Below, piece after piece: positions 38,593 to 63,356 of a stretch of DNA of 64,000 nt. The notes below the pieces were generated by a model. It saw only the letters and a program-made list of their open reading frames with translations, had not been told where the DNA came from and ran no database searches. Within the stretch, counting starts at the first letter, position 1. Each line of letters starts with the position of its first letter. The translations under genes were made by a program, and so were the position numbers. Location: contig CM057129.1 in assembly GCA_029964075.1 (NCBI GenBank), positions 11,399,430 through 11,463,429 on the forward strand, given 5' to 3'. The DNA comes from Patiria pectinifera (Eukaryota > Echinodermata > Asteroidea > Valvatida > Asterinidae).

Positions 38593-40549
38593 GTGAGTGT
38601 TTGAAACAATTGATAATTGTTCTTTTTCTTTTCTTTTTCAGAAACAAAAAAAAGTTGGCTTTTTTGCACATAGTGTTGTTTCAATCAGCGTTGGACTATT
38701 TTTAAGATTATTGCTGAGCGCGGTAGGCGTCTTGAAATTTCCCCTTTCTCTAACTATACTTGCTTGAGGACTCAAACAACACGATTTATCTGAACAAAAC
38801 TTCAATTGAAACTCATATTGCGTGACTTCTGATACACGAATGTTAACAGCCAAACAAGCGCGCCAATATTCGATCCGCGCCATTTTGTGTACATGATTTT
38901 TGAGTTACCTTCAAAATTTGTTAACAACAGTGTGGCTAGTCGGAAACAAACGCTCTATGGTTTCACTATTAGAAGGCGCAAATATGAACGGACCGGATGA
39001 TCATGCAAACAGTTTTATTCAAGTTCAAATTGCTTTAAATAACTGGATTCATTTCGGATCATGTTTAGAGTTGATATTTGTAGACATTATTCGGCCCTGC
39101 TGCATGCTCTGCTCTCAGCCTTAAAATTTCGAAACACATGAATTTGAATTTAGTGATGTTTGCATGAAAGGGTTCCACTCAACATGCCACTACATGTATT
39201 AAGATTCTGTTGAACATTTTTTGAAACACCGATAGTGGTATTCACGACTCGGCCATATTGTATTGAGAGTGAGGTAAAATCTTGATTTCTGGAACTTGTG
39301 TAGAGAAATGAAAGCAAGTTACTTACTAATGAAGTCCATTCTGCTTCAGTGAATAATTTCAAACTTGTAATTTAACGTTCCCTAATGTGTAAAGCCGGAT
39401 AATAAAAGACAAAAAACTGACAGTAAAGTAAGGCTGCATTATGCCTGCATAAAAAGTCTGGCGCCATCCCATTCAACAGTTAACAAGTAATATAATACAT
39501 TCAGGGATCTCGACAAATATGGCCAACTCGTGAATAAGGCCCATTTGGCTTCATGCATGTATATGAACACTAAATTATTGTGCAGTAAATCTGACATATT
39601 TTTCTGGGACATACTTTGTTGAGAAACAGATGGTGGCTGATGCTAATAGCCAATCCGGTGTTCTAATTTCCCACCCGGTTAAATAGTTATTTTTGTAACG
39701 ACTGTTAACTTGAATGCCACCTGTAATATATTCGCCACTACTTCCTTGGTATGAGATCATTTTCAGTTATTAATGCAGAAATTGTAAGCTCACTGTAATT
39801 CTCACAACCACAAATTCAAGCACATTTTGAGCCAATGAATTAAAGAAACATAGGATCATCTACTTTTGGTGCATTTTGTTTGTTAGAAGCAACATAATTT
39901 CTTAATATCTTTAGTAAGGTCCTCAACATCTATTTAACCTGTTGAAGTTTCAGCTCAGTAGATATGTACATTTTGAGGAACCTGTTGAAGATTCAGCTCA
40001 GAAAGAAGATGTGTACATTTTGAGGAAAATGTAAGCGAAATGTTTTGATTCTCGAAATGGAATTCCGTCTCCAACAACGTACAACAGCGTGACGTGAACG
40101 TGGGGTCACTTTTTAAACCAAATCTATACAAGGGTTTTCCGAACGATTTAAGGGAATTAGAAACCGGTCATATCTTCACTTATGACATTGCATAGTTTCT
40201 GTCATGATATAGGTACTTATCCAGACATTGCCATATGATCTCACGTGACTTTAACTTGATTTTGCTGACATATTTCGACAAAACTCTCATTTTGTGATTA
40301 ATTCGTTCGATTCCAAACTAGTAAATCCTCAAACAAAGATGATTGTTGCTCAAACGTAAGTCCAGTCAGAGCCGTTGGAGAACACAATTCGCTTGAAATA
40401 AAAAGAAAAAGAAAAAAGAACTCAATCTGCAATCACAGAGATTTGTTGCCGTGTTTTCGTGTGAAATTAGGCTATGCCTCCACTACCAGTCCCCAAGTCA
40501 TCTCCGAGTGAGTTTTGAATGACTATTTTTGTGTGTGTATTATTTTCAG
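38593..40549 (+). other. Intron 1 of gene D
   Basis: No gene; near-copy of intron 1 of gene C. Ends in GTGTGTGTATTATTTTCAG. Confidence 0.6.
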
Positions 40550-45154: not shown

Positions 45155-45870
45155 AATAATAATTTATTAATTTATAGTGCGCACATTCCATTTAAAATAT
45201 GTTCAAATGCGCATTACACTCAAATTACAGTCATAAAAAAAATAAAAATAAACAGACGTTAATTCAACAATACAATGAACACTGATACAGGGTACAAAAA
45301 ATCAATAAAAAGCTCTCATAAAAAGATGAGTTTTAAGTAATTGTTTAAAAACATTCAGGCTACTTGCTTCTCGGATATTTAATGGCAGTGCATTCCATAA
45401 CTTAGGTGCAGCACACTCAAATGCACGATCACCCAGGGTGACCTTGGTTCGACTTGCTGAGTAGCTGAGGAGTGTTTTGTCATTGGAAGATCTGAGATTG
45501 TAATTGGATGAAGATCGTTTTTGGATTAGATGGCATAAATATAAGGGAGCTAGACCATAAAGAATTTTATAAGTTATTAACAGAATTTTAAACTCAATCC
45601 TGAATCTCACCGGAAGCCAATGTCAATCAAAAAACAGTGGGGTGATATGACAGTACTTGTAAGCGTTACAGACTAGTCTGGCACGGGAATTTGCACACGT
45701 TGAAGCTGTGATATTTGAACGTCAGGCAATCCATAGAGGAGGCTATTGCAATAATCCAACCGACTAGAAATAATAGAGTGAATTAACGTTTCAGTACATT
45801 CCCTGGTCAGATACTTTCTAATACGTCTAATATTATGTAAATAATAAAAAGCCGTTCCACACGTTTTTGT
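45155..45870 (-). pseudogene. CR1/L2-like LINE, C-terminal part and 3' end (left of the large insertion)
   Basis: Minus-strand frames give TAFYYLHNIRRIRKYLTREC, SSRLDYCNSLLYGLP, then after a frame change and a stop HWLPVRFRIEFKILLITYK, GLAPLYL, GDRAFECAAPKLWNALP and LKTHLFMRAFY. This is the usual end of CR1/L2-type pol proteins. The 3' end has an ATT-rich tail at the left edge. The preceding part (RT) is at 62311-63356, so the LINE was split by the element at 45871-62310. Confidence 0.85.
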
Positions 45871-45904
45871 ATGGAAGTGTAGATAGGACATGGTTAAAAA
45901 AAAA

Positions 45905-46378
45905 ACTAATTCATACGTACGAATTACTAAACCGTACGTACGAAATACTAATTCGTACGTACGAATTACTAAACCGTACGTACGAAATACTAATTCGTAC
46001 GTACGAATTACTAATTCGTACGTACGAATTACTAAACCGTACGTACGAATTACTAATTCGTACGTACGAATTACTAAACCGTACGTACGAAATACTAATT
46101 CGTACGTACGAATTACTAATTCGTACGTACGAATTACTAAACCGTACGTACGAATTACTAATTCGTACGTACGAATTACTAAACCGTACGTACGAATTAC
46201 TAAACCGTACGTACGAATTACTAAACCGTACGTACGAAATACTAATTCGTACGTACGAATTAACAAACCGTACGTACGAATTAATAAATCGTACGTACGA
46301 ATTACTAATTCGTACGTACGAAATACTAATTCGTATGTACGGATTACTAAACCGTACGAATTAATAAACCGTACGCAT
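45905..46378 (+). repeat. Left subterminal tandem array, 21-bp unit, about 22 copies
   Basis: Unit CCGTACGTACGAATTACTAA plus A, alternating with a variant in which CCG becomes TCG and a variant GAAATACTAAT. Each unit carries the palindrome CGTACGTACG. Because 21 is a multiple of 3, all frames stay open and give artefactual 7-residue repeat ORFs on both strands. Confidence 0.95.
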
Positions 46379-46949
46379 AGTGACCGTTTTAGCCGATTTT
46401 CGGCTAACTTTGACAGTTTTTTGGGTTAAAAAAACGAGTTTGACGGAAAATTTGACAGAATGGATTTTTTTGTCCGATTTCTGGCAGAATTCTGCAAAAA
46501 AAAAACAATCAAATTTGCAAAAAAAGGTACATTCATTAAAAAAAGCTTCAATCTTTTCAAGCAAACCCTTGCAAAATAGGACAGGTTGCCTGGTCTAGGT
46601 GCTAAAGTTCACTGGGAACTGGATTTCGTCCAGTGATGCAACATACCCCGTTTTGCCTGAAATTCATGCAATTCCATATTATCTTTATATGGCTATAGGT
46701 GGTTTATAATATGATTTGAACATTTATTACGCAATATTACAACATCTGCATGTGATTTAAAGTGTTTATAGTGTATTTCGAGTAATTCTGGGGAATTTGG
46801 CAGATTTTTGATAAATCTGACAGATTTTTTGAAGTGCATTTAGCAGAATTAGTCATAACCTTACGGTCACCCTGACCGTACGTACAGTATCTCGCAACAC
46901 GTGCACACACGCTTGCAAAGGACCGCACTTGCACAAGCATCGTATAGTC
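46379..46949. other. Region between the left array and the HECT gene
   Basis: Imperfect repeats of TTTGACAG / TCTGACAG / TTTGGCAG and poly-A tracts (about 46430-46540 and 46790-46850). No TATA box is evident. It probably contains the promoter and 5' UTR of the HECT gene, but no element can be named. Confidence 0.4.
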
Positions 46950-49646
46950 ATGGCATCAAATGCTGATGTAGCTACTAAAAAAATGTACGAGTTTTTGAGG
47001 GGAAGAGGCGTAGAAGAAACTACTTTGTCAAAGATGAAAGCCGAAAAGGTAAGAATTCAGGGTTGCGTTTTGGGAGTGTTTGTGGTCCGTTACGTTGACA
47101 TTGTCTCTCAGTCTCACACTTATAGGTGCAAAGCCCAGGTCAGGTCAAGCATTGGCGTTGTCGGCGCCTGCCAGTTGGGGAAGCGGGTGGTATCATCAAA
47201 TTCGAAAATCGGGGGGGGGGGGTGGATGGGGTTGGTGCTGGACACCACATGACAAGGTCGGGCGCTGTTCATTGTACAAAAAAATGATTACTTGTGTGTG
47301 CCCGTCCCCTTTATGAAGAATTAACTTTCGATGCACGAAGAAGTCCATATGAAATTCTGGTTATATACAAACACAAAGCGTTGGTCCCGATTGTGTGATA
47401 TAATTATGTACACGCTGAATGACTGGCGCTGTGTTATTATAATAAAACACACACTTTGCCCAGGTCCGGTTGAGTTTATATCAACAAGAGTGAACTGCAT
47501 CATTTGCTAAATTTGTAATGTATAAGAGAAATACGTGTACCGGAACTAGAGCAAGAATTGTGTATGTTGTCTCTTGCAGATCGACGTTGATGTTGTGCAG
47601 AATCTCAGCCAAGATGATAAAACTCTCGAAAGTTTTCTCTGTATCGGCGACCGAATGGCACTCATGCAACACTGTCGTAAGGCCAAAAATTCCAAGAGAG
47701 AATCTGCCAAGAATGCACAGAAACGCAGCTGTTATGAAAGGATCCGCAAGAAACTCAAACTTGCATCGGGCAACTTGTCAGACAGTGAAACAGATGAGGA
47801 GGATGAAGTGTCAAAAGCCAAAAAACTACGTGGAAACCAAAATGCGTCCAAATCTACACGTAAAATAGAGTTTGGCTGGGTTCACAACGGCACTGGAGTC
47901 CGCAAAATAAGTGGTGGGGGCACAAGGAAAACTTGTGTATCCAAAACGGCAAATACAAGTGCCTTGTTGGAGGAGGGAAAGACCCTCTTTTTCCCAAAAG
48001 GTATCTCACGCAAAGGCGTGAAAGCTTCAGCATGCAGGTTTGACATTCGTGATTTCAGCCACTCCCCCCTCTCGGATGATGATACTGTCGGTTCTCTGTA
48101 TGAGGCTGTGCGGATGTCAGGAATCTTGAGGTTTTTTCTGTATACAACCGGGCCAAGCGTAAACAAAGACGAGACCTACACCCCTGAGGAGGACACTGAA
48201 ATCCCATGCTGTTCCTCAAGCTTGCCACCACAGGACCATTCGGCAGATCCTCCTGCAGAAAATGACTGTAACACGTTGGCCAAGCGTCTACGCCGCAAAA
48301 ACAAAACAGCTGGTGGTGGTCCAAAACCTTGCACAGCATCACGGCCTGATCACGATGAGTCTCAGTTGGCGGAACCTGTCACATTTGTCAGTGTCGATGA
48401 AGATCTTTTGCAACCATCATCAGAGGTCACTGTTGAAGTTGCAAGTTACGATTTCTCAGATGAGGATATCATGTTTGGACCACGACCCAGCACTGGCAGT
48501 AATTGGTCGGATACTTTGCCGCTTGTAGAAGAGGATGGTATGGACATCCTATCAGTGTCCATTGCAGACCTCGAGAGAGACGGCACCTTCGAGGCTTCCT
48601 CACCAATTCGTTCGCCCCGTTCACCCACACCACCCGCGGCATCCCCGGGACATTTGACTATAACTTTGAATCGAGTGAAAGCGCAACAAGAAATGGTTTC
48701 AAGATTTATGGATCCAAACATTGTGCACACACCAGTACGATTTGGTTTTATTGACGAATCTGGAGTGGATCGCGATGGTGTTTCACGCGAAGCGTATTCC
48801 TGCTTCTGGAAGGAGATGTGTTTATCATCAATGAGTGGGGAAAATGAAAGGATTCCGTCACTATTAAACAAGTACGGAGAGGAGGAGTGGTCTGCTGTAG
48901 GGCGTATTCTTGCTAAAGGATACATCGATCAAGGATTCTTCCCTACACAGCTAGCCGGCGCCTTTGCAGTGGCATTAATCAATGGGTTGGAAGCAGTCAC
49001 ACCAGAAATACTGATGGACTCCTTTTTGGCTTTCATTCCAGAGTCAGAAAGTGTTGTGGTGAAGAAGGCATTAGCAGGAGATCTCACCGACGAGGATGAC
49101 AAGGAAGATTTGCTAGATCTTTTATCCAGGGTTGACTGCAATTCCATTCCATCAAGAGAGGAGCTGAAACCGGTATTGATGAAGGCAGCTCACAGAAAAA
49201 TCGTACAAGATAGTAAGTTTGCTTTGGATGGCATGGCTGCAACTGCACGCGAGTTATTGCAGTTGTATCTGCCAGATACATCTGCCACAGTCACTATGTT
49301 GAACGTCATGAAGCCAACCACCCGAAAAGTACTGAAACTGTTGCACTGTACACCAATGACCAATGACGAGGCCAACTCGCTGGCCTATCTGAAGCAGTAT
49401 ATCAAGAGTCTTGACCCTTCCTGTCTGAGGAAGTTCCTCCGTTATGTAACCGCATCAGAGGTCATGTGCGTAGACAAAATCTCTGTTCAGTTCAATAAAG
49501 TACGCAAAGGGTTAAGCAGAGCACCCATCGCCCACACATGTGGACCGCTACTAGAGCTCCCATCGACTTACTGCTCATACAATGAGCTACGAGAAGAGTT
49601 CCCCAATCTTCTAGAGAGCGGTTTTCTCAAGATAGATATTTTGTAG
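46950..49646 (+). CDS. SAM-like plus HECT-domain E3 ubiquitin ligase-like protein (two exons)
   Basis: Exon 1 is 46950-47048 (33 codons, donor GTAAGA). The intron is 47049-47579, ending CTCTTGCAG, and exon 2 is 47580-49646; both junctions are phase 0, giving 721 aa. Residues 1-80 read as a SAM-like helical module continuous across the junction (YEFLRGRGVEETTLSKMKAEK | IDVDVV...GDRMALMQ). A middle part has the DDTVGSLYEAVRMSGILRFF segment and an acidic/Ser-Pro-rich linker. The last ~330 residues are a HECT domain (FGFIDESGVDRDGVSREAY ... AHTCGPLLELPSTY), with the catalytic Cys codon at 49539-49541, about 35 residues from the end as usual. HECT ligases pass ubiquitin from their own Cys to a substrate. 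As part of a transposon its role is unknown; the frame is intact. Confidence 0.85.
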
Positions 49647-50033
49647 GAAGCATTTATGTAAGGCAAGCCATTGCTCAAGGAGGCAGGAAATAGTTATCTT
49701 TTTTCAAGCATTTGTCTCAAAGCCAGCCCACTGCCAAAAAGCAGAAACTGCATCAGCGGCTCCTAGTGTATGAGGAGAATCATGTGAAAGTAGTCTTACA
49801 GAAATTAGCCAACCTTTTGGACAATTTTTTGTCACTGTACGTGCGTTTACAACACGATACGTGTGAGATTTCCCACGGTCATTTGTTTAGACCAAAGATT
49901 GACTGAAAGCTAGACCAAATGTTCGATGTTACTTATTAACTTATGTTCGCTTTCATCGTTTGTAAGACTTATTGTGTTCCTTTTACTATTATTCCCTTGC
50001 TATTCCCTTTTGTAGTTATATTCCATATCGTTA
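49647..50033 (+). other. 3' region of the HECT gene, interrupted by the gypsy
   Basis: No clear AATAAA. The last ~200 bp (from about 49837) begin a ~350-bp unit that is duplicated at 59021-59370, with the gypsy inserted inside the first copy. A 64-codon ORF at 49712-49906 is not supported. Confidence 0.5.
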
Positions 50034-50037
50034 AGTA

Positions 50038-50743
50038 TGTGGCGGTTTCGTCTCTTGTCCCTGCAACCCGGTCGGGCCAGCCCACGTCAGCGAGCGGTCT
50101 AGCGTTAGAAGGCCGGCGACGCCGATCCGTTTTGGCGGCAGTTTACCGCCTGGCCCGCAGCACACCACTAAGTTCAATCAACCACACCCAAGCCTAATCT
50201 CTTCACACCTCGTTGGACGGGGGACGACAACAATAATGGGGGGACAGACACAATAGATACAGGGCAAGGCTTCTTCTTTATTCTAAAACACGTGCGCCTT
50301 TACTAAGGCGCTTCACCTATCGTGCATCTCTACGCCTCGCACAATTAACGTTGAATTACATATGGTGTGAATTACTGATTCTTTGAGGATTTATTAGTTG
50401 TCGATCACTTAATTAACCAATTCACAGTGTGGTCCTAAAGTGAATTACCTATACTGGTTTGGGTCTCGGCTGCAAATACAACTCACACTTACTCCACGTA
50501 AGGCTCTTTCCCCGGAGTTTACGGGACCCAATTGCTCAGCTTGATTGACACGTCTGCTCAGGACGGCTGCCACGCGGGAAGAGAACGAGTCACGCCTGCT
50601 TCCTGCTTTTATACATAAATGCCACGCCTGGCTGGTACCCTCAAACATCGTGCTAAACACATATAACGGTTGGACACCAACTAGGGTATAATTAACCAAC
50701 TACAATTCGAGTCTCGCATTAATCGATTCTGCATTACGTTACA
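50038..50743 (-). repeat. 3' LTR of the gypsy element
   Basis: 706 bp, ends TG...CA. Identical by eye to the 5' LTR except A at 50688 where the other has G at 58785. On the plus strand it starts TGTGGCGGTTTCG and ends ATTACGTTACA. Confidence 0.95.
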
Positions 50744-51094
50744 TTGGCGCCTTCTAAGTTTGGTCAGTCTCTGACCTATAAAACTGATACAAAAATAAAC
50801 GTAATGCCCTTCACTTATGTAACTTTTAAACAAATGTACTTCATCAAAATAAACTCTTGTATTAAGTAAAGTACAATGTAGCAATACAAACTTCATATAA
50901 ACAGCAACTGTAAACTTCCAACTTCTTCAAACTAGAACATCTTAGAAACAGCACCTCAAACTTTAAACTTCCTCAAACAACAAACTTCTTAGAAACCCCT
51001 TAAAGAAACATATTACTCTAGTCATGGCGGACTAAAAGCTTAATGACAAGTGTCTTGCGATCTAGAGTCCAACAAGCGGATCACCCTTCCTCTT
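50744..51094 (-). other. Gypsy sequence between ORF3 and the 3' LTR
   Basis: Non-coding. Next to the LTR the minus strand reads CTTAGAAGGCGCCAA, the place of the polypurine tract, though it is only partly purine. A similar GGCGCCTTCTA string occurs on the plus strand near the 5' LTR at about 58045. Confidence 0.5.
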
Positions 51095-52492
51095 CTAGCG
51101 GATCCCAGCTACGAAGTTAGTGTCGAAGACTCTCTGTGTGTGGTCCTTTGTGATCAACATTCCCTCTCGGAATACGCTACGCGTCACCACCTCGGTGACC
51201 TTCGTCACGTTCGCGATTTTCTCCAACTCTGAATGGGTTATCCCGGGTCCAATGCTCACAACGCCATCCTCCTCGCGCACCAACCTGCAGATTCGAGTGG
51301 ACTGTTCGGGCACCGTGTCCTCCGTGGTAGGCGGGGCCTTCAGGTAGACTACATCGTAATGACGTGCTCGATGCTCATGTATGGTCTGAGTTGCACCATT
51401 GACGACCGTTGTGTGACCTTCTTCTGTGATCCTCACGGCAGCACCAGAAAGCAAGTAATGAATTCGGAGCTCAGGAGGTGAAGGCTCCTTTCTCTCTTCG
51501 TTTCGCGGGAGGGACTCGTCCGCCGAACTTGTCTCCTGCTGCTCAGCTCTTTGTTGTTGACTCGGCTGTGTCATCATACTGGGGGGTTTCCACTCAGGCA
51601 CTGGACTAGGCTCCTCCTCTCTCTCCCACTGAGATGTCGACATAGGCGACAAAACGATCTCTGCTACTTCCTCCTGTGGTTTCTCATCAATCTTCCCAGA
51701 AGATTCGATACCCACTGTTGCGATGCCATCCCGCTGGTTATCTTTTGGCTCCATAGGCCTGTTAGGCGTCTCTGTCGCCTTCCTCACCTCACCTGGCAGA
51801 GGTACTCCTATACCTGGCCGCTGAGGTGAACCAGCTGGTTCCTTATAGCTCATCCTCGCCACCGCTCTCGAAGGTAAAACAGCTTCCTCAGGGGCCTTCG
51901 ATACGGTACAAGAGGCCGTATCACTCCTCTTCTCTGGTTTTTCAGATCGCTTATGCCTAGCTTCTCCGCCTCCTTGCCTGGTTCCATCATCACCCTCAAA
52001 GATGTAACTTCCGGAGTCATCAACCCGCCTCCGCTTCCTTTCTGGAGAGACCGTCAGTTTCTTCACTCCCTTTTCATTGCCTCTAGGTGTCTGCTTACGC
52101 CTTAAGTCGCCCCCTTCTTGGCGCTTAGGCGCCTCTTCTCGCCTGCCGCTACCCTCCACACTGCTGTGCTTAGGCGTCTTGGATCGCCCTCGCTCACCAT
52201 CCGTGCTGTGACTCTCACGTTCCTGGCCATCGAAGGTTGAGGCCTGGATTGACTCGACCTCGTCAACCCGCTCAGGGTGGCAGTCACGGTAATGGGCGCG
52301 CAGGTTATCTCGTCTGCTGTTTTTATGTGAGCATCTTCCGCAGAGGTACTGGACTTTGGGGCCGTGTTCGCTGATCAGGTGTCGTTCGAGGCTCCTCTTG
52401 TGCAATTTCAACTCGCACTTTGGACATTGACTCTTATCTCCTCCTACATCCCGGGATGGCTCTTTCTCCTTTCGTTCCTTCCCCATTCTCAC
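51095..52492 (-). CDS. Third ORF of the gypsy element, two C2H2-type zinc fingers
   Basis: 465 aa, starting about 120 bp after the pol stop, in the position where some elements have env. Residues about 22-72 hold two fingers (CPKCELKLHKRSLERHLISEH and YLCGRCSHKNSRRDNLRAHY.DCH). The middle is low-complexity, rich in Glu, Arg, Pro and Ser. The C-terminal ~110 residues look folded (YDVVYLKAPP, GVVSIGPGITHSELEKIANV). There is no signal peptide, no membrane segment and no fusion-type motif, so it is not an envelope protein. The long open frame in a young element suggests it is used, perhaps for nucleic-acid binding or regulation; function unknown. Confidence 0.75.
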   Translation of the reverse strand: MRMGKERKEKEPSRDVGGDKSQCPKCELKLHKRSLERHLISEHGPKVQYLCGRCSHKNSRRDNLRAHYRDCHPERVDEVESIQASTFDGQERESHSTDGERGRSKTPKHSSVEGSGRREEAPKRQEGGDLRRKQTPRGNEKGVKKLTVSPERKRRRVDDSGSYIFEGDDGTRQGGGEARHKRSEKPEKRSDTASCTVSKAPEEAVLPSRAVARMSYKEPAGSPQRPGIGVPLPGEVRKATETPNRPMEPKDNQRDGIATVGIESSGKIDEKPQEEVAEIVLSPMSTSQWEREEEPSPVPEWKPPSMMTQPSQQQRAEQQETSSADESLPRNEERKEPSPPELRIHYLLSGAAVRITEEGHTTVVNGATQTIHEHRARHYDVVYLKAPPTTEDTVPEQSTRICRLVREEDGVVSIGPGITHSELEKIANVTKVTEVVTRSVFREGMLITKDHTQRVFDTNFVAGIR

Positions 52493-52614
52493 CTACAACT
52501 GTTACTCCTGCAAAACACACAAAGAGAAGAACTCTTTACTCCTACCAATCGGTTTTAGGGATAATTTGAGGGGTGTGCTTCTGAACCAAGTAGTATTGCT
52601 TTCATTTCCCGTTT

Positions 52615-55600
52615 TTACAAATATCTACTGGGCCTCCTATGCTGCCTCGGTGGGTTGCGCCTTGGGGGTGGTGCTGCGGGCCTTCTTCTAAACTGTCCCG
52701 TTACTACAGTCCTTTGAGAACCTGCGTCCCCTCTCTCTTGTACATCATGCGCATTATTTGTCCTTGGGCTCCGTGTTGGCACTGAGGGTTGTACCGATGC
52801 GTTCGGAGAGGTTTCCTCTGGCATACTATTCGCTTCCAATTCACTTGGTTCAGGTACTTGCTCATCGTCCTCGGTAGGCGAACGTGTACCCTGCGGTACT
52901 GGCTGTGTACCGGCTGCTCCACTTCTGTCGCTTGACGGCTCTTCCGTTGCATGTTCCGTCCATGCTCTGAGTGGCTCTCCTTCATAGATCTTCAATCGAT
53001 CGCAGTGAACTACTTTTTTCTTCCCTCGTGGGTTCTTCTGAATCCGATAGATGACATCGGAAAGCTTGTGTGTTATCAGGTATGGGCCCTCCCATCTGCA
53101 TTGTAGCTTAGGCGACAAGCCCTTTCGTTTTGCAGGGTTATGCAGCCATGCAAAGTTACCTGCCTGCAGTTTTTCCTGCTCCGCTCGACGATCGTAGTGC
53201 GCCTTTTGTCGTCTAGCACTCTGCTTTAGGCATACTTGCGCCCTCGCATGAGCTTCCCTCAACCTCTTCCGCAGATCGTACGCGTAGTCTGACTCCGCAG
53301 CAACAACTTCCTGCTCCCCGTCGCCAGGTACCTCCGTGGTCAGGTCAACGGGTAGGCGAAGTTCGCGTCCCAACATTAACATATTGGGAGATTCGCCTGT
53401 CGACTCCTGAGGTGTGGCTCGGTAGGCGAATGTAGCCAAGGGTATCTTTTCGTCCCAATCGCGCTGTCGTTTAATTGGTTCGATCATCATTGCCACCATT
53501 GTGATGAGGGTGCGATTAAATCGCTCTATCATACCGTCGGATTTGGGGTTGTAGGGACAGGTACGCGTTTTTTCTATTCCGAGGATGCCACACATTTCTG
53601 CGAAAACTCTAGCTTCAAAGTTTCTCCCCTGGTCAGAATGCAGCACCTCAGGTATGCCGAAACGACACACGTACTCATTTACAAATTTCGCAGCAACTGT
53701 CTCCGCGGTCTGGTCGGGTATGGGGTACGCCTCCATCCATTTAGTTAGGTAGTCACCTACCACTAGTATGTATTTATTCCCCTTCTCGGTCTCTGGTAGG
53801 GGACCCACGACATCCAAGGCGACCCGTTCCATGGGCGCACCCACTATGTGTTGTTGTAGTGGCGCCCTCTTGGTCCTAGCGGGAGACTTCTTTTTGGCAC
53901 ACACGTTACATCGTCGAATTATCGACCTCACGTCTGCAGACATACGAGCCCAGTAGAACCTTACACGGACTTTGGCCATTGTTTTCTTCACACCTAGGTG
54001 TCCCCCTGACACGCCACCATGTAGTTCCTTGACCAAGTCGGCTCGAAATCTCTCCGGCAGTACGGTGCGCCACTGCACCAGGCTTCCGTCGTCTGACTCC
54101 CATCGCCTCGAAAGGACATTGTCCCTTACATCCAGTTGATCCCATAGTCGCCAATATGTCTTCGCTGTTGGTGATTCAGACGAGATCGCCTCGCGGTCTG
54201 GCCTGCCCGAGCCTTCAGTCTTCGCCTGTAGCACCCACCGGATGGACATATCCTCCCTCTGTGCTTTTCTCATCTCATCACAGGTGATTATTGGCCCATA
54301 AGTTACAGATCTCAAGTTTGTGCCGTCTTCTTCCTTACTCTGTTCTGCTACCAGATCGACTTCGCCATTCAGTGCGCCTGTGGGTTGCTCATCACGCCCA
54401 CACTGAGAACACTGCTTGCGTGACAAGCCGTCCGCGTTTCCGTGTGATCGACCAGCTCGGTGCACTATGGTAAAGTTGTATTCGCCTAACACCTGCAACC
54501 AACGTGCCATCTGACCCTGGGGCTCACGAAAATTGACTAGCCAACGCAAAGCGCCGTGATCGGTCCTAATGGTGACTTTATTTCCATACAAGTATTGCCT
54601 GAACTGTTTCAGAAACACAACAACGGCCAGGAGCTCTCTGCGTGTTACACAATAGTTGCGCTCCGCTTTGCTGAGTGCTCTACTGGCATAGGAGACAACT
54701 TTCTCCTGTCCGCCTGTCACCTGCGAAAGGACTGCACCTATCCCCACACTGCTCGCGTCCGTATCCAAGATGTAATCCGCCTCAGGATCAGGGTACTGCA
54801 ACACTGGTGCATTCTGAAGGCAGTTCTTCAAATCGTTGAAGGCTCTCTCACAGTCGTCGTCCCACTGAAACTTCCGTGCCTTTTCCGTAAGGCGGTGCAA
54901 TGGACGTGCTCTATCGGCGAAACTCCTAATAAATCTCCTATAATAAGAAGCCAGGCCCAAGAAACTTTGTACCTCTCGGACTGTCGTAGGCGCAGGCCAG
55001 TCTCGCACGGCTGTGATCTTTGCGGGATCAGTAGCGATGCCCTCTCCGGAGACTATGTGTCCAAGGTACAGCACACTCTGCCTAAACAAATGGCATTTCC
55101 TAGGCTTCAGTTTTAGGCCTGCCTCACGTAGGCGCTGGAAAACTCTCTCGAGGCGAGCCAGCTCTTCCTCAACTGTCTTGGCAAACACAATGATGTCGTC
55201 GAGGTAAACCAACAGTATCTCCCAATGCAGTCCGGAGAGAACGCGCTCCATGAGCCTTTCAAAAGTGGATGGGGCGTTACAAAGCCCGAAAGGCATAACT
55301 CGCCAGCTGTAGAGACCCCCACGGACCACAAACGAAGACTTCTGTCTGGCCTCCTCGTCGAGTTCCACCTGCCAGTAGCCCGACGACAAATCTAGGGTAG
55401 AGAACCATTTAGAACCTGCCAGTGTATCTAGTGATTCGTCTATTCGCGGTATCGGGTAGGCGTCCTTTATCGTTACCGCATTAAGCCGACGGTAGTCCAC
55501 GCAGAATCGTTTACTCCCATCTTTTTTCTTTACAAGAACAACGTTGGACGCCCATGGGCTATCTGATGGCGCAATTGTTTCATTCCGCACCATTTCCTGG

Positions 55601-55791
55601 ACTTGGCGGTTAATCTCCTCCTGTTCCTTGGGAGGGTATCGCCTTGGCCTCTCCTTTATTGGTCGGGCATCCCCGGTACTTATCCGATGTCGCACCCAGT
55701 CCGTACGACCAATATCTGCATCGCCAGTGGAAAATATGTCGTGGTATTCGCAAAGCAGTCGGGCTAAGCTGTTGTGATGCCTATGATCCAC
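52615..55791 (-). CDS. pol: Gypsy pol: reverse transcriptase, RNase H, integrase
   Basis: 1058 codons from the first start-like codon, which is GTG at 55791. The frame stays open upstream past 55850, overlapping the protease frame, so it is probably entered by frameshift. RT: VDYRRLNAVT, LDLSSGYWQ, catalytic YLDD (about residues 196-199). RNase H: DTDASSVGIG, RTDHGALRWL. Integrase: HHCC zinc module (HGGVSGGHLG ... CNVCAKK), then catalytic D (LDVVGPLP), D (HSDQGRNFE) and E (SDGMIERFNRTL). Near the C-terminus a GPY/F-type module (WEGPYLITHKLSDVIYRI) follows. All key residues are present, so the protein looks functional. Confidence 0.95.
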   Translation of the reverse strand: MDHRHHNSLARLLCEYHDIFSTGDADIGRTDWVRHRISTGDARPIKERPRRYPPKEQEEINRQVQEMVRNETIAPSDSPWASNVVLVKKKDGSKRFCVDYRRLNAVTIKDAYPIPRIDESLDTLAGSKWFSTLDLSSGYWQVELDEEARQKSSFVVRGGLYSWRVMPFGLCNAPSTFERLMERVLSGLHWEILLVYLDDIIVFAKTVEEELARLERVFQRLREAGLKLKPRKCHLFRQSVLYLGHIVSGEGIATDPAKITAVRDWPAPTTVREVQSFLGLASYYRRFIRSFADRARPLHRLTEKARKFQWDDDCERAFNDLKNCLQNAPVLQYPDPEADYILDTDASSVGIGAVLSQVTGGQEKVVSYASRALSKAERNYCVTRRELLAVVVFLKQFRQYLYGNKVTIRTDHGALRWLVNFREPQGQMARWLQVLGEYNFTIVHRAGRSHGNADGLSRKQCSQCGRDEQPTGALNGEVDLVAEQSKEEDGTNLRSVTYGPIITCDEMRKAQREDMSIRWVLQAKTEGSGRPDREAISSESPTAKTYWRLWDQLDVRDNVLSRRWESDDGSLVQWRTVLPERFRADLVKELHGGVSGGHLGVKKTMAKVRVRFYWARMSADVRSIIRRCNVCAKKKSPARTKRAPLQQHIVGAPMERVALDVVGPLPETEKGNKYILVVGDYLTKWMEAYPIPDQTAETVAAKFVNEYVCRFGIPEVLHSDQGRNFEARVFAEMCGILGIEKTRTCPYNPKSDGMIERFNRTLITMVAMMIEPIKRQRDWDEKIPLATFAYRATPQESTGESPNMLMLGRELRLPVDLTTEVPGDGEQEVVAAESDYAYDLRKRLREAHARAQVCLKQSARRQKAHYDRRAEQEKLQAGNFAWLHNPAKRKGLSPKLQCRWEGPYLITHKLSDVIYRIQKNPRGKKKVVHCDRLKIYEGEPLRAWTEHATEEPSSDRSGAAGTQPVPQGTRSPTEDDEQVPEPSELEANSMPEETSPNASVQPSVPTRSPRTNNAHDVQERGDAGSQRTVVTGQFRRRPAAPPPRRNPPRQHRRPSRYL

Positions 55792-55846
55792 TCCATCTCT
55801 GCTTCTTTCAAAAAGGTCAGCGAGGTGATCGGGAACCTGCAGGTGA

Positions 55847-56572
55847 CTATCGAGGCCAGGCGGCTCTAGTGTTATCTACATCGCCTTCACTCACAGGCGT
55901 CAACAAACCAGCCATGGTTCCTCTCTTCACTACACATTCCCTTTTCCCGGGGTTGAAAACTCGGATAGGCAACGTCTCCTCGTTGGCCTTCACAAGTACT
56001 CGCGCAACCACCATGCCCTTGTCCGCTATCTCATTCCTCTCCGCTGGTTCAATAACTGCTAACCCACCATATGCCTTTCCACCGGTCATATATCCTGGCA
56101 CCAATGCCTCGTGGCCGGCGGGAACTCTCGTTGTCTCGCTGACGACCACTCTCGCACAGATTCCTCTTCCCTCTGTGTCATTGCACCTAATTCTTTCTCC
56201 GTTTACCTGTAGTTCTAATGTTTGGAAGTCTAGGATGCCCTTGGTTCTGAGCAAAAAATCCATCCCCAAAATCCCGTTGATCTTGCCGGTGTTCCCGAAC
56301 ACAGCATTTACCTGACAGGTAGTCCTGCCAACCTGAATTTCTACCCAGGAACTGCCGATCGTCTCCATCGTACTGCCATCAGCATTGCGCACTCTAGCAC
56401 CTTCCATTGTTAACATTGGCCTGCTCTCCTTTGGTATTAGGTAGTAGAGTTCTGATGAAAGCACGGTGTCCGTTGCCCCTGTGTCAACCAACAAATTAAT
56501 CCTGACTCCTCTTACCTCTGCACGCACAAACAGGCCCGTGCGTGCTTTGTCATATCGAAATGACTGATGCAC
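55847..56572 (-). CDS. Gypsy aspartic protease segment of pol
   Basis: 241 aa reading frame with the retropepsin active site LLVDTGATDTVLS near residue 30 and a second conserved ILGMDFLL segment near residue 135-145. It is in the same frame as gag's end plus 14 nt: the gag stop (56587-56589) lies just upstream, so it is expressed by readthrough, reinitiation or frameshift rather than as a separate transcript. Its 3' end overlaps the upstream-open part of the RT frame. Confidence 0.85.
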   Translation of the reverse strand: MHQSFRYDKARTGLFVRAEVRGVRINLLVDTGATDTVLSSELYYLIPKESRPMLTMEGARVRNADGSTMETIGSSWVEIQVGRTTCQVNAVFGNTGKINGILGMDFLLRTKGILDFQTLELQVNGERIRCNDTEGRGICARVVVSETTRVPAGHEALVPGYMTGGKAYGGLAVIEPAERNEIADKGMVVARVLVKANEETLPIRVFNPGKRECVVKRGTMAGLLTPVSEGDVDNTRAAWPR

Positions 56573-56586
56573 ACCATCTCCCTCAC

Positions 56587-58017
56587 CTAAACTCTCTCGT
56601 GCGCTGTTTCCAACGGCGCCTCCTGGCCCCGATTTACATCCAGCTTTCCCTGGGGCCGTCGAGTCAGCTGGTCGTCGTTTCCCGAGTTCTTTCTGTTATT
56701 GGGAATGTGTCGTGGACAATTGCGGGCGAAGTGTCCTTTCTCCTTGCATTTATAACAAGAATCATTTCGCCTTCGGTTGGCGCCAGTCAAGGTCTCCATC
56801 TTCTCCATCCACACCTTCATCTCGCGGTGGTTGTCTATGATGGACTCCTTTAAAAGGCGCTGATCCTCTATCACGTCTCTCAGGGAATTTAAGTCTTCGT
56901 TCTCCACTACTCTAGCAAGCTTGGAACGTCTTCCGCCTCTATGTTCCTCTATCTTGAGGAAACCTTCAGTGTGGAGCGCTGCTTGCACAGCCTCGTCCAG
57001 TGACGATGGCCTTGCTCTAAAAATCCCCTCCCTGATGGCTTGCTCCTCCACCGCGTCCGAGAAATGGCCTCGGGACAGGCGATCCCTGCCCTCTTCAGTT
57101 AACTCCGGGTAGGCGAGCGCAGTAAGATCACGAATGGCCTGACCAAGTTCCTGTAAAGATTCCCTAGGCCCTTGTCGCCTATGGCGTAGCTCCGTGAGAT
57201 GATTCTCGGCGAGCTGTCCAGGGCCGAATCTCCTCTCTAATAGTCTAACCAATTCAGAATAGGTGACGTGGCTTCCACCTCCCAGGTTCCCTAACACCTT
57301 TACTGCGGACCCTTGCAAGCTCGCCGCCAGAAAAACCTTGGCCTGGCTGTCCGTCCAGTTATTCGCCAATCTGCAGGCTTCAAAGTGTTGTTTGTAGTCG
57401 CGCCATGGGGTCTTACCATTGAACCTGTCTGGCACTATATTCGGACGTTTCGTCACCTCTGTGTAATCAGTACTCGTCACCAGCTCATTCGCCTTCCTTT
57501 CTACCACCTGGCGTAGGGATGAATTACCCTCGCGTGCCGTTGAGCCTCTTGCCGACTGCGATGACTCACTAAACGGTGAAGTCTTCTGCCGGCATACAGT
57601 GGATCGTCCCCGTGGCTCCCACGATGGTAAACTGTCATTCACCAGGTCATCTATCAATGATGCATTCGAATATGTCGATTGTGATGCGACCGGGGTAGGC
57701 GCAGGCGCTTGTGGACATCGCACATTGGTTCGCGGCCTAGGCGTAGGCGCTAGAGTATGACGTGCCATGGTTCGCGGCCTTGGCGTAGGCGCTAGTATAC
57801 TGTCTCCGGCATTACTACCAAACTGAGCAATCATCGACGCACCTTCCGGGTGGAACCCCGAGTCCTTTACCAATGCCTCCTGAAGCTGCAGTTTGATTCG
57901 ACGATTCTCTGCCCGGAGCTGCACAATCTCCTCAACGCTGGTCTCTCCATCTCTTCCTCCCATCTGCATCACGTCAACTGCTACTTCATCGTCGAAGTCA
58001 ATCAAACTCATCGTCAC
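56587..58017 (-). CDS. gag: Gypsy gag (capsid and nucleocapsid)
   Basis: 476 aa. A short heptad-like stretch lies near residue 30-45 (IVQLRAENRRIKLQLQEAL), then a linker rich in Pro/Arg/Ser, then a retrotransposon capsid-like region (about residues 185-350, with RFNGKTPWRDYKQHFEAC, ERRFGPGQLAENHLTEL and RRQGPRESLQELGQAIRDL). A CCHC zinc knuckle (CYKCKEKGHFARNC) lies near residue 435. It forms the particle and binds the element RNA. The start ATG at 58017 follows a leader of about 100 bp after the primer site. Confidence 0.9.
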   Translation of the reverse strand: MTMSLIDFDDEVAVDVMQMGGRDGETSVEEIVQLRAENRRIKLQLQEALVKDSGFHPEGASMIAQFGSNAGDSILAPTPRPRTMARHTLAPTPRPRTNVRCPQAPAPTPVASQSTYSNASLIDDLVNDSLPSWEPRGRSTVCRQKTSPFSESSQSARGSTAREGNSSLRQVVERKANELVTSTDYTEVTKRPNIVPDRFNGKTPWRDYKQHFEACRLANNWTDSQAKVFLAASLQGSAVKVLGNLGGGSHVTYSELVRLLERRFGPGQLAENHLTELRHRRQGPRESLQELGQAIRDLTALAYPELTEEGRDRLSRGHFSDAVEEQAIREGIFRARPSSLDEAVQAALHTEGFLKIEEHRGGRRSKLARVVENEDLNSLRDVIEDQRLLKESIIDNHREMKVWMEKMETLTGANRRRNDSCYKCKEKGHFARNCPRHIPNNRKNSGNDDQLTRRPQGKLDVNRGQEAPLETAHERV

Positions 58018-58114
58018 CTTGTTGTGGCCAATATTCCGTTATTGGCGCCTTCTAGGTGTAGGTTGTAACTTTTGTATTTCCTCTATACTTGCTTGTGGTG
58101 ACGCTACGGTGCCA

Positions 58115-58132
58115 ATCCCACTTCTGACACCA
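58115..58132 (-). promoter_or_regulatory. Primer-binding site for tRNA-Leu
   Basis: Two bases inside the 5' LTR. The plus strand reads ATCCCACTTCTGACACCA, the 3' end expected of a leucine tRNA of the CAG/CAA type (acceptor TTCTGACA plus CCA), so the element RNA would pair with it over 18 bases. Confidence 0.8.
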
Positions 58133-58134
58133 TT

Positions 58135-58840
58135 TGTGGCGGTTTCGTCTCTTGTCCCTGCAACCCGGTCGGGCCAGCCCACGTCAGCGAGCGGTCTAGC
58201 GTTAGAAGGCCGGCGACGCCGATCCGTTTTGGCGGCAGTTTACCGCCTGGCCCGCAGCACACCACTAAGTTCAATCAACCACACCCAAGCCTAATCTCTT
58301 CACACCTCGTTGGACGGGGGACGACAACAATAATGGGGGGACAGACACAATAGATACAGGGCAAGGCTTCTTCTTTATTCTAAAACACGTGCGCCTTTAC
58401 TAAGGCGCTTCACCTATCGTGCATCTCTACGCCTCGCACAATTAACGTTGAATTACATATGGTGTGAATTACTGATTCTTTGAGGATTTATTAGTTGTCG
58501 ATCACTTAATTAACCAATTCACAGTGTGGTCCTAAAGTGAATTACCTATACTGGTTTGGGTCTCGGCTGCAAATACAACTCACACTTACTCCACGTAAGG
58601 CTCTTTCCCCGGAGTTTACGGGACCCAATTGCTCAGCTTGATTGACACGTCTGCTCAGGACGGCTGCCACGCGGGAAGAGAACGAGTCACGCCTGCTTCC
58701 TGCTTTTATACATAAATGCCACGCCTGGCTGGTACCCTCAAACATCGTGCTAAACACATATAACGGTTGGACACCAACTAGGGTGTAATTAACCAACTAC
58801 AATTCGAGTCTCGCATTAATCGATTCTGCATTACGTTACA
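58135..58840 (-). repeat. 5' LTR of the gypsy element
   Basis: 706 bp, same ends as the 3' LTR. In minus orientation it holds the promoter and the start of the RNA; TATA-like TATAAAAGCAGG lies on the minus strand near 58700. Confidence 0.95.
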
Positions 58841-58844
58841 AGTA

Positions 58845-60270
58845 TATCCATTTTGTGATTATGGTCATATACATGTATTTATCCTGTTTTGCGACCTATA
58901 TAACAGATTCACAAAGTTGTTTGCTTATGCATCTTGTATATCTTGCCTCGAAACAATTGAAATACGAAATCAAAGGCAATAGGCAGAAGTATGAATGATG
59001 TACCATGGTGGTTGTTTAACTGTATGTACACGTACCATTTCAGATTCTCACGGCCATTTCTTTAAAAGGCCAACATTTAAACTAACGGAAAGACCAAATG
59101 TCGTTGTTATATGTAACTTACTTTGGCTCTCACCTTTGTAAGACTTAGTGTTTTATATATCCTTTTGTAGTTATATTCCATATCGTTTATAAGTATACCC
59201 ATTTTCTGATTATGATCATGTTCACGTGTTATCTTTGTTGCAACCTATATAACAGATTCATAATGTTTTCTTGCTCATGCATCTTTTAATATATTGCCTC
59301 GAAAAAAGGTGAAATGACAAATTCATAAGAAATAGGCAGAAGAATAAGTGATGTACCATGGTGGTTCTTTGGTTGGGTCGGCTGAAAATATGCTGCTTAA
59401 AATTTGTAAATTCTTTTTGTTTTTATTTTGTACTTTTACAGAGATCTATACTTTTTATTTAAAGGGGTTACTTAAGGTGATCATCAGTATCATTTATGTC
59501 TGACAACGCTCTGTATACTTGTTTACAAGCAAAAAGGTTATGTTTTTCTAGCTTTCATTAAAAGAGCTTGTTAAAGTTGACATCCTTTTGTCATTAAAAG
59601 TTTATAAAGCCTAAATTAGTTATTAAAGCTTAACAAAAGGGCAGATATTCAATCATTTGTTAGCTGTTGATAAACCGGTATATCACGCTGAGATTGGTCT
59701 AACTGATCATTAATAATTGGGGGTACTACCTATTTCTTCCAGAACAGAAGTCATATCATGCTACCATTTATTGCATGCTTATAAATTCTTAAAATTTGTG
59801 ACATTGTGTTAACACATCAATGCTGGATGATACTACACATTAACCAGGTTGTTTTGGATTACAGTACAACATACATGTGGTAACTGCCTATTGATTTCGT
59901 CGGAAATATTGTAATGGTAATTTTTTTTTTCTTACAGTGACCCCAAACAAATCAGTTTATCTCGGTCAAACACGATTCATATCCGACTTGGAAATAATAT
60001 CTTTGTGATTTCAAGTCAGCGGTTTTTCATTATTAAAGGCAACGGAAGAGTAGTACCACGAAACTAAATCTGAGGCGTTTTTGTTCGAATGTGTGATTCA
60101 TAATCTAAACTGTAAACGGGTATACAGCCAAACTAGTTGTTGACACCTTAACCTGGTCTCTTTTCTGTCTACTTTATGGCGAACGTCAACTGGTTATACT
60201 CATTCAGCGTTTTTATAGCTCAATGTTATACTCAAGCGACATTGGGCTGGTTAATTAAGTCAACCCAAGA
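58845..60270. other. Non-coding middle of the large transposon
   Basis: Besides the ~350-bp duplication, AT-rich DNA without a supported gene. The plus ORFs that start at 60176 and 60273 are shadows of integrase exon 2. Confidence 0.5.
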
Positions 60271-61933
60271 TCATGGTAGAAGTTCTCTGCGTAGGCGAAT
60301 GTACAGGGAAGCAGCTTCGTATCCATTACCGGGAGCGTTCCAGTCATTGTCCTCCATCAGAATACACGCAACATCAAAAATGTCCCGGTCGCATGGAATG
60401 GAACGTTTTGGCCTGGTCTCCGTCATGCAGACTTCAACTTCATGCATGTCCACTTCCACTAGTTTATCTTCATTACCCTGGAGCTCCGGTAAGGTATACT
60501 TAAGAATTGGACGCCCCCCGTTACTGTTGATCTTGTGATCCGGTCTCATTCTATGATTGTTCCATGATGCCAAGACCTGGTCCACATCATCCTACAAACA
60601 GAAATAGAACAGTCAGCAATTTATATTTGGTCTGGAAAATTCAATTAACAGGTTACCGGGATGGTGGGGCTGCCATCATTGCAGGGCATGTGGCGCCCGT
60701 CGTTTGTTTTAATCCATAATGATCTACATGTCCACACCGCCCATTCTAAAGTTTTTCTTTAAAGGTGTCTATATTCTTGCCCGTGCGCTCAATTGTCAAA
60801 TTTGGGAATTTAAATACGGAAAGACTTCTCACGGACATCACTTGACACCTTGCTCACAAATCATATGTGTGGACTGAACAAAATTATTTTCTGAGTAAAT
60901 GCTCCTACCTTTTTCCAGCTAAATGTCACTTTTTTGGACATTGTTATCACTTCCTGATGGGTGATGTTCCAATTTAGGGACAAGATCTGTGATGTCTGAG
61001 TACTTGTATGGTACACGTGAAACACATTGTTTATTTTGATTTTTTGAGAACTATATAACCGAGAGAAATAGGCCATACCTGTACTATTCTCAGGAAGCAA
61101 AGCTGTATCAAGTTCTTACCTAACACGTCACCGTTGAACAGCCCGTCCTCTTTGAGAGTGTGGAAGATATCCATCCAATATTGAGTGCAGTGCTTTCTGA
61201 AAAAGCTCCACCAGGCCTCCATCTTTTGGTTAGTTGTGCTCTTTCCATACAGAAAGCTTTTAGCACCAGCCATGTTGTCTTCGTCGTTTCTTCTGAGAAA
61301 CGTCTGTACTTGCTCAACATGGCCATTTTCGGTCCCCATATCTGCCCGCACTGCGCGTGGACATCCGTGCCTAGAAGAAACTGTTGCCAGATAGTAGCCT
61401 AGTATTATTTTGGGATCGTTATTGGTGGTGTATGCCTCTAACCAAATCAAGTGTCTAGAATAACCATCTATGCATCCGCTTATCGCAATGCCAAACGGCT
61501 TCAACTTATCATTCCCATCCATGTGCCACGTCTGGTTGGGTCCAGCACTTGTGTAGATCCTGCGTGTCAAACGATGTCTCCTCCTTGCTGCAACACCTTC
61601 AGGGTCTAGCAAATGTTGTATCATACGAATAGTGTTCTTTGAAACAACAAACCCCTCCTCAATGCACCTAGCGTGCATCCAGCGATATCCATAGTACTGA
61701 GCAGATGTTTGCAATTGTTCTTCAACAAATGATGCAATCTTAAGGATATCTGAATACCCTCTCCTCCTATACAGTCCTCCTTTCCTTAAAAGTCGGCGTA
61801 GATGTCTCTGACTGATAACTATTCCATGGTTCAGAGCAAGGCAAGACAATATCTCCTTCTGACTAAAACCGAGCTGAAAATACAGCTTAATAATCTCTTG
61901 GCGGTCCATTTTAAAACGTTTGTTTTTTGGCAA
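60271..61933 (-). CDS. Integrase-core DDE transposase of the large transposon (two exons)
   Basis: Exon 1 is 61933-61079 (285 codons, ending FLRIVQ, donor GTATGG). The intron runs from 61078 to 60592 and ends TTTGTAG. Exon 2 is 60591-60271, starting DDVDQVLASWNNHRMRP; both junctions are phase 0, giving 391 aa. Residues about 8-55 form a helix-turn-helix-like part (GFSQKEILSCL). An RNase-H-fold integrase core follows with candidate D139 (WHMDGNDKLKPFG), D198 (RADMGTENG) and E239 (NQKMEAWW). The spliced WNNHR.RP segment is typical of this family. Such proteins occur in many copies in fish, coral and lancelet genomes as integrase core domain-containing proteins. It is probably the enzyme that moves the element. 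The frame looks intact. Confidence 0.85.
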
Positions 61934-62042
61934 GTAAAAGGACTAACTTTCATATCGGTCTAATTAGTCAGAAGCACAGTTACTAATCTGGAGTAACTAC
62001 ATGACGACAGCGTCAGCACTACTGAAAGTGCTGTATCGAATT
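61934..62042 (-). other. Upstream region of the integrase gene
   Basis: About 110 bp between the start codon and the right array. It must hold the 5' UTR and part of the promoter if transcription does not start within the array. No TATA box recognised. Confidence 0.35.
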
Positions 62043-62277
62043 GGTAATTCGTACGTACGATTTAGTAATTCGTACGTACGGTTTAGTAATTCGTACGTAC
62101 GAATTAGTAATTCGTACGTACGGTTTAGTAATTCGTACGTACGAATTAGTAATTCGTACGTACGAATTAGTAATTCGTACGTACGGTTTAGTAATTCGTA
62201 CGTACGAATTAGTAATTCGTACGTACGAATTAGTATTTCGTACGTACGGTTTAGTAATTCGTACGTACGAATTAGTT
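62043..62277 (-). repeat. Right subterminal tandem array, 21-bp unit, about 11 copies
   Basis: Inverted counterpart of the left array: units of TTAGTAATTCGTACGTACGG with a variant ending TACGAA. Half as many copies as on the left. ORFs of 7-residue period on both strands are artefacts. Confidence 0.95.
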
Positions 62278-62310
62278 TTTTTTTAACCATGTCCTATCTA
62301 CACTTCCGTA

Positions 62311-63356
62311 TTTTTGTGATATGAGTAGACATTGTCAAGTTTGCATCGAACCAGGCACCCAGACTCTTCACAATGGAGACAGGGGAAAGTCTGGACTCCC
62401 CAACATTGATGCTGTCAATATTCACCTTAGCCAATTGTTGGCGAGTACCCATGATAATAAATTCAGTTTTATCATCGTTTATTAAACATCAACCCATTAC
62501 TGAGCATCCATTTACGCACAACATGTATACAACCCTCCATTGCAGAAAGAGCAGACGCCTGGCTCGATGCATCATCTGGGCAAAAGGAAAGATAAAGTTG
62601 CGTATCGTCAGCATAACAATGCACATCTGGAAGTTGAGTCTCAATAATTTCGAACAAACTACTGGTATATAAAATAAACAACAAAGGACCTAAACAGGAT
62701 CCTTGGGGTACACCCCACTCAAGGTCAAATTTCTGAGAAAGTTGACCACGAACAGAGACCCGTTGAGATCTGTCAGACAAATAAGATTTAAACCAGAGGA
62801 GAACAGTCCCATCAATACCAAACTTGGACTGGAGCCTGTTCAACAAAACCGTATGATCTAAAGTATCGAAAGCAGAACTTAAATCAAGTAAGACTAATAA
62901 AGAAACATGTTGTTTGTCCATAGCCATTAGTTTATCGTTTTTAACTTTCAATAAGGCCGTCTCAGTACTATGGCGACTACGGTAGGCCGACTGAGTAATT
63001 GGATATAAACTGTTCAATGATAAATGAGATTGTAGTTGGAATGCGACTGCCTTTTCCACCAACTTAGATATGAATTGAAGATTACTAACAGGCCTAAAAT
63101 TTTCCATCTTTAAGTCTAGACTAGGCTTTTTAAGCAATGGTAAAACCACTGCTGATTTCCAGGCTGCTGGGAAATGACCAGTACATAAAGAGGAATTGAT
63201 CATTCTGGTTATAACAGGCAATAACAGATCTAAAGAACTCATGAGTAACTTCATTGGAATAGGGTCAAGGATACAACACTTCTTACTAGAACCTAAAATG
63301 AGCTTACGAACACCATCTTCAGAACGTTGCACAAAATCGGTCAATGTTCCCCAGAC
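62311..63356 (-). pseudogene. CR1/L2-like LINE, reverse-transcriptase part (right of the large insertion)
   Basis: Minus-strand frame 63344-62472 contains FRPVSNLQFISKLVEKAVAF, YRSRHSTETALLKV, LLDLSSAFDTLDH, GVPQGSCLGPLLFILY and the catalytic YADDTQLYL. After a one-base frame change (INDDKTEFIIMGTRQ) it runs to the insertion site (LTMSTHITK). The 5' part (endonuclease) is missing; it is truncated near 63356. It continues at 45863 on the other side of the large element. Confidence 0.9.

Follow-up and report, generated by a model that had tools for sequence, protein, structure and literature searches.

Why should a DNA transposon carry a gene for a ubiquitin ligase beside the gene for its transposase? 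The question is raised by a window of 64,000 nucleotides of the Patiria pectinifera genome (GenBank assembly GCA_029964075.1, contig CM057129.1, positions 11,399,430 to 11,463,429, forward strand), in which an earlier note, made from the letters alone, described a large transposon with a HECT ubiquitin ligase and an integrase-type transposase. I propose that this is probably an autonomous transposon of the IS3EU/GingerRoot lineage, that its second gene, encoding a HECT E3 ligase and convergent with the transposase gene, belongs to the element, and that the ligase most likely acts on a host factor by which transposition is held in check. Positions below are those of the window unless a contig is named.

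The element occupies positions 45870 to 62310, an interval that reaches 16.4 kb because a Ty3/gypsy retroelement sits inside it. When that is subtracted 7,694 bp are left, and the element is no longer unusually large, as it had seemed. The matched inverted ends described earlier are there: the left terminal repeat (45870-45911, plus strand) begins TATGGAAGTGTAGATAGGACATGG, the right one (62270-62310, minus strand) ends ...CCATGTCCTATCTACACTTCCGTA, and the termini take the form TAYGG...CCRTA. The right end had been placed exactly, at 62310, while the left one, given as 45871, begins one nucleotide earlier. Comparison of the flanks at both ends gives the target-site duplication TTTTTG (45864-45869 and 62311-62316). 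The seventh T of the 7-bp duplication that had been read here, TTTTTGT, is terminus on the left and flank on the right, and the duplication is therefore 6 bp, with termini TAT... and ...GTA. Next to the terminal repeats stand the inverted arrays of a 21-bp unit, also as described, with the palindromic core CGTACGTACG. The left array (45905-46358, plus strand) has 21.6 copies and 19 perfect cores, and the right (62037-62276, minus strand), built of the inverted copy of the left unit, has 11.4 copies and 11 perfect cores; the whole window contains 30. Removing the element and one duplication in silico rejoins, as had been claimed, a long interspersed nuclear element (LINE), giving a reverse-transcriptase frame of 122 aa that is open over the junction on the minus strand. 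On the reconstructed empty site, the left flank (45304-45869, minus strand) holds the C-terminal part of the interrupted LINE open reading frame (ORF), and the right flank (62317-63356, minus strand) the upstream part, from which the frame continues. This LINE copy is old, and its remainder is split into several frames.

Between the ends lie the two spliced, convergent genes of the earlier description, both open and with one intron each. One encodes a protein of 721 aa, from a predicted first exon with a canonical GT donor (46950-47048, plus strand) and a second exon, stop included (47580-49646, plus strand), that contributes an N-terminal module, a low-confidence linker and the HECT domain. 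The claim of a ubiquitin ligase gene is borne out by a match to PF00632, by a predicted structure that agrees with HECT ligases (VIA-align rows span residues 337-682) and by the alignment of the active site, where Cys687 of the C-lobe, the catalytic cysteine, aligns with the HTC of TOM1 and HUWE1. This cysteine is kept in 15 of 16 aligned homologues, P0019 being the exception. Fold and cysteine are thus the same as in the ligases UBR5, HUWE1 and TOM1, but identity to them is 11-19% in the structural alignments listed, the N-terminal part differs, and the element's protein is borne by a mobile element. The second gene, then, encodes a HECT E3 ubiquitin ligase, which from its sequence would be expected to be active.

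The transposase gene runs on the minus strand, its first exon (61079-61909) encoding a helical N-terminus and a DDE core of D131, D190 and E231, and its second (60271-60591), which has a canonical AG acceptor and extends the alignment with homologues, the C-terminal part and stop. With canonical splice sites the product has 383 aa, not the 391 first given. A 369-aa model, the query in the homologue search, was dropped in favor of the 383-aa model since its donor was non-canonical. That the transposase is of the integrase type is confirmed by Pfam (PF24764 rva_4, E 2.4e-27), and the spacing D131-58-D190-40-E231 is conserved in 27 aligned sequences. A predicted structure of residues 1-263 has an all-helical N-terminus, and its best fold matches are TnsB, IstA and integrases, with low TM-scores; a PDB search with the transposase alignment gave nothing at E <= 0.01. 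Pfam found no zinc-binding domain on the transposase, giving weak Clr5/HTH_21 matches instead.

Is the ligase a lasting companion of the transposase or did the two meet here once? Both proteins were used to search the genome that contains the window (613.5 Mb, 1020 contigs), and the loci were compared by coordinates with a limit of 25 kb; for large families the counts are minima. The HECT protein gave 58 matches at 40 loci and the transposase 131 matches at 95 loci. A transposase relative lies within 25 kb of 25 of the 40 HECT-protein loci, in convergent orientation at 24 of the 25, as against 0.93 on average and at most 5, orientation disregarded, in 2000 shuffles (20 Mb being assumed for contigs whose size had not been entered). 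The Pfam HECT profile, which is blind to transposons, gave 92 matches at 48 loci, of which 23 have a transposase relative within the limit, every one convergent (1000 shuffles: mean 0.17, maximum 3). The N-terminal module of one relative, used as query, gave 36 matches at 32 loci; 24 of these have a transposase nearby (22 convergent, 1 on the same strand, 1 divergent). Seen from the other side, a convergent accessory locus stands beside 37 of the 95 transposase loci, many of which are short fragments, and beside 18 of the 26 hits of at least 750 bp. Many diverged relatives keep the facing gene pair, and for this reason the ligase appears to be a functional component rather than accidental cargo. 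These transposons have had the ligase as a standing second gene for a long time, and the partnership that the earlier note supposed is strongly supported. As to where the loci lie, C7, which makes up 44.85 Mb of the genome, holds 19 of the 40 HECT-protein loci and seems to gather these transposons.

Copies of the window's own family carry the pair as well. The genome has at least 176 matches to the left end. Nineteen places were inspected, the window included: an exact 6-bp duplication flanks 11, two of which, both on C2, have common flanks and resemble one insertion duplicated, and 8 have no exact pair. TAT/TACGGAAGTG is found at both ends of the window element and of other copies. Full-length copies number six (the window, C15, C17, two on C21 and C864), all six with both genes, and matches above 90% identity to either protein are found only there. 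The prediction of further copies with the same ends and gene pair thus holds, with duplications of 6 rather than 7 bp. In the window, C17, C864 (by eye across two loci) and one of the C21 copies they are exact; the second C21 copy has 5 matching bases out of 6, and in the flanks of the C15 copy none was seen. Five aligned full-length copies (all but C864) are 97.6-98.8% identical to one another; the other copies measure 7,480, 7,484 and 7,510 bp, close to the 7,694 bp of the window element, and, on C17, where part of the HECT gene is deleted, 6,813 bp. Six short copies chosen for comparison (806-980 bp) have ends and arrays in common with the autonomous element, and none of the six matched the element's interior alone at E <= 1e-3, with unlimited matches. 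By their sequence they resemble elements mobilized in trans. Some copies (L046, L053 and, on C13, L059 220-260) lie inside or against terminal repeats of their own family, so that their flanks are family terminal repeat, which hints at insertion into the family's own ends.

How far back does the pairing go? Eleven gene pairs, with 49 usable comparisons, fall into seven families by query-anchored identities. Between families, identity is 20-49% for HECT and 42-72% for the transposase, and HECT is the less conserved in 31 of 36 comparisons (means 0.35 and 0.50; the near-duplicate C6 left out), the exceptions all involving C7:2.06M. The two identities are correlated with r 0.90 overall and 0.26 between families, which shows common transmission within families and not close co-evolution between them; the mirror-tree value of 0.90 was accordingly rejected as evidence of co-evolution. 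In the C13 family the termini are TACGGAAACGTATTACC, both starting TACGG, with 22-bp arrays of core ACGTACGTACGT. TTTCCG flanks the C13 element on both sides, a 6-bp duplication that can be trusted less than the ones in the window family, because the element sits in another copy's end, which repeats TTTCCGTA. The C10 element has one end TACGGAAGCGTAGAAGG, with TACGG, adjoining an array of 21-bp palindromic units; its other end was sought and not found. The C3 element has one end TACGGAAGC, again with TACGG, next to an array whose units are 31 bp long. Subterminal arrays of palindromes thus recur with altered sequence, as might be expected of binding sites that change with their protein.

I propose that the transposase would bind the inverted 21-bp palindromic arrays and the ends, excise the element and join it to a target cut with a 6-bp stagger. 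The ligase made from the same copy would capture a nuclear protein through its conserved N-terminal module and then ubiquitinate it. The likeliest captive would be a host factor that restrains transposition, and its modification would bring about a permissive state from which the full element and the short copies with its ends might both gain.

Several observations weigh against this proposal. Four full-length copies out of six have one or both genes damaged: the C15 transposase and the C864 HECT gene have stops, the C17 HECT gene has its deletion, and one C21 copy has frame breaks in both genes. The ratio of nonsynonymous to synonymous substitution (dN/dS) exceeds 1 (1.06) for the transposase in one of ten comparisons of copies, and for the window HECT gene against three other copies, with 19-29 changes each, it is 0.64-0.69; recent constraint on the genes is weak, to judge by these substitutions. 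No convergent accessory gene was found within 25 kb of 8 of the 26 long transposase hits, and some relatives may therefore do without one or have lost it. Both ends together have been seen only in the window family and C13. The correlation of 0.90 stems from near-identical members of one family, and since the identities come from query-anchored partial alignments, some of the N-terminal part only, the choice of target has a thin comparative basis.

That choice is a guess, which ranks a host restraint factor first and the element's own transposase, the chief rival, second. The restraint factor is favored since, from family to family, the ligase is in most comparisons the less conserved protein and follows the transposase loosely. 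The rival supposes that the ligase acts on its own transposase or on the strand-transfer complex, either limiting the dose or dismantling the complex after integration so that repair may proceed. A pair acting in cis would be expected to stay linked, as the genes do (24 of 25 and 23 of 23 convergent), and parallels exist in RAG1, which has RING E3 activity, and in the MuA complex, which ClpX unfolds. A tight pair of ligase and substrate should, however, also diverge together, and the between-family r of 0.26 makes this target rather unlikely. It is a good deal less probable that the ligase shifts the host's cell cycle or DNA repair in favor of gap repair after excision or integration, for the presence of a HECT ligase is the sole point that speaks for it, and the Pfam search found no repair-related domain on the HECT protein.

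Might the HECT gene be nothing but a captured host gene, carried as a neutral passenger? HECT domains are common in host genes, 25 of the 48 Pfam HECT loci are without a transposase relative within 25 kb, and the weak recent constraint on the window copy is what a passenger would show. But a passenger would decay, and this gene has kept its active-site cysteine in all aligned homologues but P0019, with a dN/dS below 1 in all six comparisons of copies. The pair, moreover, persists, nearly always convergent, in seven families as far apart as the HECT identities indicate. The linkage test in the main refutes the passenger, which I consider very improbable. Tandem arrays can mislead assemblers, and one may even ask whether the locus is an error of assembly or a host gene that happens to lie between two repeats. 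An error at the arrays is unlikely because the same paired ends recur elsewhere in the genome, and the duplications on separate copies, the LINE frame over the empty site and the five other full-length copies already refute both suppositions, whose probability is negligible.

If the host restraint factor is the target, what recognizes it? Within the N-terminal module G99, W100, G112-G114 and F138 are invariant in 13 aligned sequences, and a PDB sequence search with the module gave nothing at E <= 1. The HECT protein as query, which favors HECT, retrieved 22 database proteins, 11 with a precomputed HECT domain and one, P0018, in which the module is fused to a protein kinase domain (PF00069, 1.3e-47). 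Homologues occur in fish, sea cucumber and bivalves. In the C3 family a RING exon (PF13920, 1.2e-12; C3:6118653-6118811, L064 5654-5812) lies on the accessory strand between the module and the transposase; module and RING are candidates for a single gene, in which RING would possibly replace HECT. In the sister copy on C7, the stretch inspected lacks the exon. For the C1 family, two readings of the exons fell below the Pfam HECT model; a HECT C-lobe was found nearby by the genome search with the Pfam profile, at C1:5762763-5763011. A kinase variant was sought in this genome without success: the Ig/kinase part of P0018 gave 54 matches, and the only ones at most some 15 kb from a transposase relative, by eye, belong to a tandem kinase array on C14, judged to be host genes. 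Viral contigs searched with both proteins gave no relatives.

Considered together, the HECT gene here, the kinase of P0018, the candidate RING of C3 and the alpha-kinase of fungal elements suggest that in IS3EU the second gene recurrently encodes a protein-modifying enzyme and lies in opposite orientation. A bolder generalization, which I advance tentatively and hold to have less than an even chance, is that animal IS3EU are built of two genes, the second of which joins a conserved module (N-terminal, with SAM-like helices and a GW...GGGTR domain) to a protein-modifying enzyme that can be exchanged, and that the module directs this enzyme to a single conserved target. The enzyme would usually be HECT, with RING possibly in its place in one family, a protein kinase in one database protein and an alpha-kinase in fungi. 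The element would carry its own means of modifying a factor by which the host restrains it, and roughly half the HECT loci detected by Pfam in this genome would belong to transposons.

The Ty3/gypsy element, which the earlier note did not mention, is a later insertion between the two genes and no part of the transposon. It occupies 50038-58784 (8,747 bp, minus strand) and is recognized by its mutually identical long terminal repeats of 650 bp (50038-50687 and 58135-58784) and by Pfam domains for a gag zinc knuckle, aspartic protease, reverse transcriptase, RNase H and integrase. The insertion is young. No convincing target duplication was found at 50038/58784, the best being 3 bp, GTA. An extra ORF 3' of pol (51095-52492, minus strand, 465 aa) has by eye a C2H2-like zinc finger pattern, and Pfam gave no match to it. 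Outside the transposon, two tandem pairs of a related 43-47-bp unit (AACCTGTTGAAGATT...ACATTTTGAGG) stand 10.7 kb apart, at 29217-29308 and 39936-40027.

The ligase has been kept by several families long enough for identity to fall to 20-49%, which implies that control of ubiquitination matters to these elements. In them one can test whether a DNA transposon uses the ubiquitin system to disarm a host silencer or to adjust its own transposase. Transposon genes may, moreover, account for many of the "HECT genes" counted in animal genomes, 23 of the 48 Pfam loci here lying beside an IS3EU-type transposase. A search of the literature found nothing that joins HECT, transposon, IS3EU and transposase, and among the matches listed none describes a DNA transposon with a HECT gene; the search did not extend to Repbase or to most subscription journals, and a Repbase entry may therefore already list the HECT ORF. 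In the part of PMC11645255 consulted, IS3EU and ubiquitin appear in unrelated places; both words also occur in a paper on methylation in water buffalo, and PMC8195603 proved unrelated.

How, then, does the element compare with systems already known? The assignment to IS3EU, offered before as a surmise, is supported by termini, duplication and transposase type. According to the portion of PMC10045372 at hand, IS3EU forms one lineage with GingerRoot and has TA..TA termini, mostly 6-bp duplications and an integrase-type DDE transposase without an N-terminal HHCC domain. The termini, TAYGG..CCRTA in fungi, are found in the window element, in other copies and in C13, and at one end each in C10 and C3; 6-bp duplications occur at the 11 places out of 19; the transposase is that matched by PF24764; and upstream of its core Pfam finds no HHCC domain, the model showing helices. 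IS481EU, which needs duplications of about 4, 15 or 25 bp, was set aside, as was Ginger1, which needs 4 bp and an HHCC domain. That same portion describes no ubiquitin ligase, and "HECT" and "ubiquitin" occur 0 times in the paper. The TET-bearing IS3EU of fungi (PMC12730594, likewise in part) resemble the element in their TAYGG..CCRTA termini, terminal repeats of more than 30 bp, 6-bp duplications and an additional enzyme gene that runs opposite to the transposase. There, however, the second enzyme is an alpha-kinase, with TET/JBP between, and the two words again occur 0 times. The Helitrons with deubiquitinases VTD and OTU (PMC9741609, from the sections available) are, like this element, DNA transposons with a ubiquitin-system enzyme of their own. 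Theirs is a domain within the Helitron ORF, without a DDE transposase, and removes ubiquitin, whereas the HECT enzyme of the element would attach it.

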